From NCBI GenBank assembly GCA_025699005.1, contig JAILWI010000001.1:620001-684000 (forward strand): a stretch of DNA of 64,000 bases, read 5' to 3'. Under the pieces are notes generated by a model that searched no databases, was not told where the DNA came from, and was given only the letters and a program-made list of their open reading frames with translations. The position numbers were made by a program, and so were the translations under genes. This document shows positions 7,576-9,258 of the stretch, in pieces; position 1 is the stretch's first letter; every line of letters starts with the position of its first letter. The stretch comes from Chloroflexota bacterium (GTDB lineage Bacteria; Chloroflexota; Limnocylindria; QHBO01).

Positions 7576-7623
7576 CGGGCTCTCCTATGACAGAAGTGTT
7601 GGGTCGTGAGATGAATAATAGTT

Positions 7624-7651
7624 GTTAGTGCCCGCCGTCGCGGGTACTAAC
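7624..7651. promoter_or_regulatory. Imperfect palindromic operator-like site GTTAGTGCCCGC-CGTC-GCGGGTACTAAC
   Basis: 12-bp arms with one mismatch, between divergent EAL gene (start 7575) and small peptide ORF (start 7702); no T-run. Confidence 0.6.
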
Positions 7652-7701
7652 GGCGGCCTCTGGGTGGGTCGAGCGGCTGGCGGGCGGAAAGGGAATCACC
7701 C

Positions 7702-7809
7702 ATGCGTCGTATCCGCTCGTACCTGTTCTCGGTCGCACTGTCCGCGCTTCTCACGCTTCTCACGGCTGCAGCCGTCCTGGCAGAGGGCCAGCCTCCGTTC
7801 CCGCGCTGA
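7702..7809 (+). CDS. Small secreted peptide precursor, 35 aa: MRRIRSYLFSVALSALLTLLTAAAVLAEGQPPFPR
   Basis: Basic N-terminus, hydrophobic core, V-L-A cleavage motif leaving EGQPPFPR; GGAAAGGGAA RBS-like sequence; not in ORF track because shorter than 60 aa. Confidence 0.55.
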   Translation: MRRIRSYLFSVALSALLTLLTAAAVLAEGQPPFPR

Positions 7810-7871
7810 TCTGACGGCCCGGTAGAGACGAAACAAGTGCCCGCCGGCCGCGCCCGCCCCCCAGGCTCGAC

Positions 7872-9200
7872 CTAGCGCTCCGCGCTGCGGACCCCGGTCC
7901 CCCGACCGAGTGCCTCGGCGTAGAGGGCATTGGCTGCCGCGAGATCGCCCAGCTCCGTCAACATCCCGGCCCACTCGCCCAGCACGTCCCGCCGCCGGCT
8001 CACGGCGTGATGCGCTTCGAGGAGGTCAGCCGCCGACCGATACGAGTCCTCGGCGGCCGAGCGCAGGCCGCGGCGTCGTGCGACGCGGGCCAGGGTCAGG
8101 TGCGCGCCGACGCCAGCGAGGAACGAAGCACCGGTCGCGAGGCGATCCAGGGTGCTCGACGCAAGGCGATGGGCCCGCTCCTCGTCGCCACGTGCCAATG
8201 CAAGCTGCGCGTCGGCTTCGATGACGTCGGCCGCGAGCCGCTCGTCCCCACACGCTTCGGCGAGGGCGCGAGCACGATCGAGGTGGGCCTGCGACCGATC
8301 GAGGTTTCCCATCTGGAGGAAGACGAGGCCGAGGTTGATCTCCAGCGACGCCTCGTCGCGCTCGGTGTCGGATGCACCGTACAGGCCCAACGCTTCCTGG
8401 CCCGCTCGCAGGGAGGCCTCGAGATCGCCGACGCGCCGGTACTGGAGCGCGAGCCCGGAGAGGAAGGCGGCACGCTGTCGCACCGACGCGCTCCCGGTCA
8501 GTGCCCGCGCCTCCTCCATGTAGGCGATGGCACGATCGGGCTGCCCGTCCCACGCCTCCACGTTTCCGAGCGCCGCGAGGAGTCGAAATCGGAAATCGGG
8601 CGCGACGGCGATGCCGCGGCGATCGTCGGCGAGCAGCTCGACCAGGATTCCGCGGGCCTCGGCAGGGTTGTCGTCCTGGTACTGGGCGTACGCCAGCCAG
8701 TAGCGAGCCATCGCCGCATCGGCTGGGTGCCCGAGGCCGGAGAACAGCTCGGCCGCCTCCGACGCCGGACGAATCGCCTCCCGGCCCTTTCCGAGACGGC
8801 AGAGGGCCTCGGCTCGGCCGCGCAGCAGCTCCGCGCGCTGACGACGGTCGCTGCCCGCCCGATCCAGGAGGGTCTCGTAGGCGTCGAGCGCTCGCTGGGC
8901 ATCGCCGGCAGCGAGGAGGAGATCGGCCTCGAGTCGGGCCGCGGCGGGCGGCTCCTCGGCCACGAGGTCGGTGATGGCGACCCCGAGCCGTTCGCTGAGG
9001 AAGGTGAGGGCGGCCATCGACGGCTTGGCGAGCCCGCGCTCGAGCGCGCTGATGTACGCGGCCGTGTAGCGACCGCGAGCGACATCGGCCTGGGTCAGCT
9101 CTGCGCGCGTCCGCGCTTCCCGGATCCGATCGCCGATGCGTCGCGCGACGTGCGAGTTGTCGACGACGGTCACCCGCCGCCGAGCCCGGGTGGTCTTCAC
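7872..9200 (-). CDS. XRE-family HTH transcriptional regulator with C-terminal TPR repeats (RRNPP-like architecture)
   Basis: HTH: IGDRIREARTRAELTQADVARGRYTAAYISALERGLAKPSMAALTFLSERLGV, followed by repeated TPR-like helices; GTG at 9200 with TATCAT -10 8 nt upstream. Confidence 0.85.
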   Translation of the reverse strand: MKTTRARRRVTVVDNSHVARRIGDRIREARTRAELTQADVARGRYTAAYISALERGLAKPSMAALTFLSERLGVAITDLVAEEPPAAARLEADLLLAAGDAQRALDAYETLLDRAGSDRRQRAELLRGRAEALCRLGKGREAIRPASEAAELFSGLGHPADAAMARYWLAYAQYQDDNPAEARGILVELLADDRRGIAVAPDFRFRLLAALGNVEAWDGQPDRAIAYMEEARALTGSASVRQRAAFLSGLALQYRRVGDLEASLRAGQEALGLYGASDTERDEASLEINLGLVFLQMGNLDRSQAHLDRARALAEACGDERLAADVIEADAQLALARGDEERAHRLASSTLDRLATGASFLAGVGAHLTLARVARRRGLRSAAEDSYRSAADLLEAHHAVSRRRDVLGEWAGMLTELGDLAAANALYAEALGRGTGVRSAER

Positions 9201-9226: not shown

Positions 9227-9258
9227 CAACTGATAGTTGTTCCCGCCGCGGCGCGGGC
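9227..9258. promoter_or_regulatory. Operator-like region CAACTGATAGTTGTTCCCGCCGCGGCGCGGGC upstream of XRE-TPR gene
   Basis: CAACT-GAT-AGTTG palindrome plus CCCGC-N6-GCGGG; shares ATAGTTGTT...CCCGC...GCGGG with 7618-7644. Confidence 0.5.

Follow-up and report, generated by a model that had tools for sequence, protein, structure and literature searches.

The described systems most similar to the locus analyzed here are NprR-NprX and AloR-AloP of Bacillaceae and Paenibacillaceae, PlcR-PapR, and Rap-Phr. NprR consists of an HTH domain followed by nine TPRs, PlcR carries five TPRs, and Rap proteins have no DNA-binding HTH and target response regulators. An HTH-9TPR architecture is also described for AloR, in a study that discusses nine- and five-TPR architectures, raises the question of which of the two the ancestral receptor possessed, and treats RRNPP as a family belonging to gram-positive bacteria and the viruses that infect them (PMC12700828). 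In general, RRNPP(A) receptors carry an N-terminal XRE/HTH domain (except Rap) and a C-terminal superhelix of 5-9 TPRs whose concave face binds a peptide of about 5-10 residues, which derives from the C-terminus of its precursor and returns through an oligopeptide permease. Such signaling is regarded as a trait of Bacillota (Firmicutes). The RRNPP_detector survey was restricted to complete Firmicutes genomes (PMC10075063). Our literature search found no paper linking RRNPP with Chloroflexota, and the single co-mention of RRNPP and Chloroflexi was in a Streptococcus paper.

We computationally analyzed a stretch of 64,000 nucleotides, here called the window, from the genome of a Chloroflexota bacterium (2.57 Mb in 30 contigs, 94.5% complete). 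We consider it quite probable that this stretch harbors an RRNPP-like peptide-signaling module, in which a secreted octapeptide would be re-imported, bind the TPR domain of a regulator and thereby operate an autoregulated switch. The features of the locus are as follows:

7872..9200, minus strand: receptor/regulator gene, 442 amino acids, XRE HTH and nine TPR repeats (Pfam, AlphaFold model)
7702..7809, plus strand: propeptide gene, 35 amino acids, with a predicted Sec signal sequence (residues 1-27) and the C-terminal octapeptide EGQPPFPR (28-35) (translation, conserved mini-ORF, pN/pS)
7783..7806, plus strand: predicted mature signal EGQPPFPR, after V-L-A (sequence; precursor anatomy in the clade)
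7686..7694, plus strand: ribosome-binding site GGAAAGGGA (sequence; comparable purine-rich sites before orthologous peptides)
7622..7650, plus strand: putative peptide promoter TTGTTA-N17-TACTAA (alignment with the orthologue promoters TTGATT-N17-TACCAT)
7610..7626, plus strand: operator-like 17-mer GATGAATAATAGTTGTT, overlapping the -35 region of the peptide promoter (position and similarity to the clade motif)
9227..9239, no strand assigned: operator-like dyad CAACTgatAGTTG, roughly 30 nt ahead of the regulator start (second of two genome-wide 13-mer matches)

As in NprR-NprX and AloR-AloP, a single cytoplasmic protein combines an XRE-type HTH with nine subsequent TPRs (modeled here), the gene of a small exported propeptide (export predicted here) lies next to that of the receptor, and the mature peptide, which is predicted here, is short and C-terminal. 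The differences concern the phylum (Chloroflexota instead of Bacillota), the gene arrangement, with the peptide gene downstream in tandem in the two described systems but usually divergent in the Chloroflexota family and convergent in the window, and the peptides, which have a Pro-rich [FYWIL]P[RHK] C-terminus in Chloroflexota, where in addition no RRNPP model matches. PlcR-PapR likewise combines an HTH-TPR regulator with a neighboring exported peptide (predicted here) and a dyad DNA site (putative here), but PlcR has five instead of nine TPRs, the operator sequence differs, and the TM-score of our regulator to the PlcR structure 3u3w is just 0.39 by query length. Rap-Phr shares the TPR superhelix and the neighboring exported precursor (predicted here), whereas the Chloroflexota regulator carries a highly conserved HTH. 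Most likely, the Chloroflexota system works like RRNPP systems, but it belongs to another phylum and differs in its peptide chemistry, its operator and the way its genes are arranged.

A preliminary description of the window had recognized a protein of about 440 amino acids with an N-terminal XRE HTH and TPR-like repeats at 7872-9200 on the minus strand. This was borne out: the gene starts with a GTG codon, its product has 442 residues, and Pfam matches HTH_3 at residues 26-79 and TPR_12/TPR_2 in addition. Comparison of 20 homologues revealed RYTxAYISALE as the strongly conserved recognition region of the HTH. In the AlphaFold2 model (mean pLDDT 89.9), five helices of the HTH region precede 18 helices that make up nine TPRs, which as modeled is a layout of the NprR/AloR type. 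A PDB profile search matched PlcR (HTH; 2qfc, E 2e-7), NprR (TPR; 4gpk, E 2e-5), RapH and ComR, with eukaryotic TPR proteins (kinesin light chain, LGN) scoring equal to or above PlcR, NprR and Rap. Using the model as query, Foldseek ranked designed and LGN-type TPRs first and returned PlcR-PapR7-DNA (3u3w, E 1e-6), RapJ-CSF (4gyo) and RapF (3ulq) within the top 50; AimR-like structures were not named among the top viral fold matches. Judged by the model, the fold similarity is that of TPR proteins in general. None of the curated models for RRNPP families (Rgg, Rap, NprR, PlcR, AimR) matched the regulator in Pfam (E ≤ 0.01) or NCBIfam (E ≤ 0.1). Since an RRNPP-like layout is here combined with generic TPR similarity and no family-model match, kinship with the RRNPP systems of Bacillota is unproven, but not excluded. 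The best NCBIfam match by E-value was the NsdA family of TPR-like Streptomyces regulators (NF053720, E 3.9e-11, best stretch in the TPR region), of which the regulator is not a member, scoring 43.1 bits against a cut-off of 75. NsdA is not known to have a paired peptide.

The preliminary description had also placed a 35-amino-acid ORF with a good ribosome-binding site on the opposite strand, just past the regulator stop, and we found positions, ribosome-binding site and arrangement as described. Translation of the plus strand from 7702 to 7809 yields MRRIRSYLFSVALSALLTLLTAAAVLAEGQPPFPR followed by a stop codon, an AAGGGA-type ribosome-binding site lies 8 nt upstream, and the two genes converge stop to stop with 62 nt between them. 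For eight precursors that we searched, Pfam returned nothing and NCBIfam nothing above its cut-off.

To judge the pairing, we collected regulator homologues with their flanking regions from the same genus, family, class and phylum, many of them from fragmented MAGs, and obtained 131 distinct regulators (82 from the close clade and 49 distant ones). A blind scan for ORFs of 25-60 amino acids that follow a Shine-Dalgarno site and encode a basic N-terminus plus a hydrophobic core, in which signal peptides were called by a simple hydrophobicity rule and not by SignalP, found such a mini-ORF next to 89 of the 131 regulators (55/82 close-clade, 34/49 distant), compared with 6 of 159 control genes of the same loci. 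The corresponding Fisher p-value of 3e-34 is nominal, as the regulators are related and independence is overstated. A profile of the close-clade peptides identified a partner for 61/82 regulators; 61/76 is the fairer figure, as six of the unpartnered regulators lie on contigs ending less than 500 nt upstream and were set aside. About 20% of the close-clade regulators with enough flanking sequence thus show no recognizable peptide gene. Regulators without such a gene nearby include L018, L019, L030, L032, L035, L037, L038, L052, L054 and L064, and these partnerless proteins, several of which come from genomes with a paired paralogue, may be orphan receptors.

Of the 61 peptide genes, 56 are located upstream of the regulator and divergent, four downstream and convergent, and one downstream on the same strand. 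The four convergent genes are those of the window and of L137, L138 and L139, which together form the window's own subclade. The two closest orthologues of the regulator (69% and 67% identity) retain the 35-mer in the same convergent place; their precursors end in ...AAALADGQPPIPR, that of the window in ...AAAVLAEGQPPFPR, and both have DGQPPIPR in place of EGQPPFPR. For the orthologues of the window peptide, pN/pS is 0.33 (0.33 and 0.47 for two other peptide groups) and the three codon positions show a variability of 4.3/2.0/9.0, which is what a translated and constrained ORF should show. Two of the checks on which the preliminary description had let its proposal depend, namely a short secreted ORF conserved beside orthologous XRE-TPR genes and constrained substitutions in the 35-mer among relatives, both turned out in its favor, the former for orthologues and paralogues alike.

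The precursors of the clade share a common anatomy. In 58/61, a small-x-A site would leave 6-12 residues upon processing, which is predicted; in most members, the tail after A-x-A comprises 7-10 residues and is hydrophilic or Pro/Gly-rich. A proline occurs within the last three residues of 55/61 precursors, and the tails mostly end with [FYWIL]P[RHK]. One precursor of the sample contains the putative signal twice (DLAGAPWPK-ARVTAPPLATTQ-DLAGAPWPR):

-368 to -182 from the regulator start, on the regulator's 5' side, minus strand: double-signal precursor of locus L116 (sequence)

A duplicated tail of this kind is reminiscent of RRNPPA systems, in which precursors with tandem pheromones have been described (PMC11343458). 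The distant-family precursor L164 contains an IWPN repeat, and tandem copies as in L116 and L164 would mark the start and the end of the mature peptide. Distant Chloroflexota families with the same type of regulator have unrelated tails, such as ACDPEGSGGHC, SPPLCC, DTLPGPR and GIWPAPF. In L142-L158 (family f2 of the same class), the peptide genes lie upstream of the regulator on the same strand and encode two-cysteine tails of the AC(D/N/G)PxGxGGxC type, possibly a disulfide or another macrocyclic signal. We also asked for co-variation between peptide and TPR region by a partial Mantel test, but the partial r of 0.20 (p 0.002) was lower than the correlation of the signal-sequence part with the TPR region (0.34). 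We therefore dropped peptide-receptor co-evolution as evidence; the weak co-variation may reflect phylogeny.

Upstream of most close-clade peptide genes, we identified the 17-bp motif GTTTAGnAATA[CG]TTGAC, which ends in the -35 box (TTGAC); TA[GC][CG]AT comes after a further 17 nt or so. The motif is an imperfect dyad, GTnnAGTA-n-TACTnnAC. When a weight matrix was run over both strands of 577 kb, peptide promoters accounted for 36 of the 37 best matches. The exception, in L117, is directly followed by a peptide gene whose broken frame had hidden it from the ORF scan. As the matrix was trained on peptide sites, the informative part of this result is the near-absence of equal sites elsewhere, together with the discovery of L117; leave-one-out scores at peptide promoters had a median of 28.9. 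Compared with this, the window's own 17-mer at 7610-7626 is a weak match (11/17 positions, PWM 14.1), and its peptide promoter is weak as well, falling below the threshold of a consensus scanner, which made no call. A near-perfect 12-nt inverted repeat (GTTAGTGCCCGC/GCGGGTACTAAC, 7624-7651) spans the putative -35 to -10 region; we rejected it as a general operator, as it is missing from both orthologous promoters.

Within the whole 2.57-Mb genome, the 13-mer AMTRATAGTTGTT occurs at two sites with at most one mismatch, 7614-7626 before the peptide gene and 9229-9241 before the regulator gene, and the reversed control pattern has no site. The 13-mer was written from these two sites, so that the informative observation is the lack of a third one in the genome; a motif-based regulon with distant targets did not emerge at this stringency. 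The putative operator-like element common to both promoters would, from its sequence, tie the peptide to the regulator. Many promoters of homologous regulators contain a palindrome, GTCAAG-N5-CTTG[AC]C, for which 15/17 sites (at most one mismatch) lie within -80..+10 of the regulator start. A 17-bp palindrome resembling it, such as GTCAATTGAGTATTGAC, extends across the regulator stop codon (-9 to +8) in many family f1 loci (L010, L014, L031, L034, L053 and others) and might serve as an auxiliary operator in DNA looping.

In the mechanism that we propose, we infer that the precursor is cleaved and secreted, that the peptide is imported, binds the regulator and activates or derepresses, and that the regulator binds DNA. 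The 35-residue precursor would be exported by Sec and cut after VLA to release EGQPPFPR or a shortened version. Once its concentration is high enough, the peptide would re-enter the cell, probably via an oligopeptide ABC importer, and bind to the TPR superhelix of the 442-residue regulator. Binding would then change the occupancy of the dyad operator of about 17 bp by the HTH dimer, and, with this operator both overlapping the -35 region of the peptide promoter and preceding the regulator gene, an autoregulated switch would result. A position over the -35 region fits a repressor, but an operator centered near -39 would be compatible with an XRE activator as well. The genome encodes signal peptidase I and several OppA-type (SBP_bac_5) binding proteins, and machinery of the kind needed is therefore present.

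Spurious ORFs are plentiful in high-GC genomes, but the idea that the mini-ORF is merely a chance ORF near the regulator deserves practically no credence, as it is contradicted by the occurrence of the mini-ORF beside orthologous and paralogous regulators, its sequence conservation and pN/pS, the ribosome-binding sites, the conserved promoter and the enrichment over controls. A genuine small protein could instead be the output of a regulator that senses another ligand, that is, a secreted or membrane microprotein such as an antimicrobial peptide, a small toxin or an envelope factor, and not a signal. The motif, which would put the peptide gene under direct local control, would agree with such a role, a small-toxin arrangement might also place a short signal-peptide ORF next to an XRE gene, and one distant-family precursor weakly matches entericidin A (E 0.007, far below the cut-off). 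We nevertheless regard this role as unlikely: in most members the tail, hydrophilic or Pro/Gly-rich, lacks the length of a typical pore former, its duplication in one precursor resembles tandem pheromone precursors (PMC11343458), the tails are unrelated across Chloroflexota lineages while the HTH-TPR partner is constant, and this partner is a peptide-binding type of scaffold.

It is very unlikely that the peptide stays in the producing cell and that its hydrophobic or C-terminal part contacts the regulator there, be it to inhibit it or as a leader-like sensor of translation. Nearly every family member shows the conserved n-, h- and A-x-A regions that mark an exported precursor, whereas the regulators are cytoplasmic DNA-binding proteins. 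Such a role would suit a short ORF that is apparently autoregulated together with its receptor, and Firmicutes are known to use leaderless communication peptides, which act on RopB-type receptors (PMC10518010). We favor a secreted signal that is sensed by the TPR domain of the regulator. As to the preliminary proposal of an RRNPP-like pair outside Bacillota, the conserved pairing, the constraint on the peptide and the shared operator-like element speak for it; homology of the pair to the RRNPP systems of Bacillota, over and above the general HTH-TPR architecture, is unproven.

The preliminary description further suggested that the system might regulate the neighboring EAL and FMN-reductase genes. 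Synteny lends this no support, and we rejected the two genes as conserved targets, since the orthologous pairs L137-L139 adjoin other genes (by eye, MFS-like, beta-propeller-like, cyclase-like and phosphotransferase-like ORFs). In the window itself such control is possible, as the divergent promoter regions shared with these two genes contain both operator-like sites.

In a scan of named genomes, all 16 near full-length regulator matches came from Chloroflexi/Chloroflexota MAGs, and six others covered little beyond the HTH. Carriage of the system by phages or plasmids was dropped as an explanation, as no relatives were found among viral contigs or plasmids. The tiny peptide gene, retained next to the regulator through much of the class, points to peptide-based cell-to-cell signaling in Chloroflexota, a phylum for which no such case appears to have been described. 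Going further, we lean slightly towards a widespread and diversified superfamily of peptide quorum-sensing systems in this phylum, which would occur in several of its families, combine HTH-TPR receptors with exported mini-precursors, and use four or more unrelated types of pheromone (tails of the kinds [FYWIL]P[RHK]; ACDPxGxGGxC; SPPxCC; short PGPR-/WPN-type), having either evolved separately from Bacillota RRNPP or split off from it very early. If peptide binding is confirmed, intracellular peptide quorum sensing would extend to a second, deeply separated phylum, the Chloroflexota receptors would become a candidate outgroup for the question of a five- or nine-TPR ancestor, and many receptor-peptide-operator sets would be ready for use in mostly uncultured bacteria. 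The signaling claim is directly testable, as octapeptides are cheap to synthesize.

Two further observations concern the gene content of these loci. Several loci of family f3 (L007, L028, L029, L022, L025, L005) contain a separate short HTH match of about 60 amino acids between the peptide gene and the regulator, an example just upstream of the regulator being G053:C86:11740-11925. The window's own genome carries a second copy of the system (L034, G000:C23) with the tail SGGGDFPLRR and a different type of promoter, so that, from the sequences, EGQPPFPR and SGGGDFPLRR would be two candidate signals in one cell.
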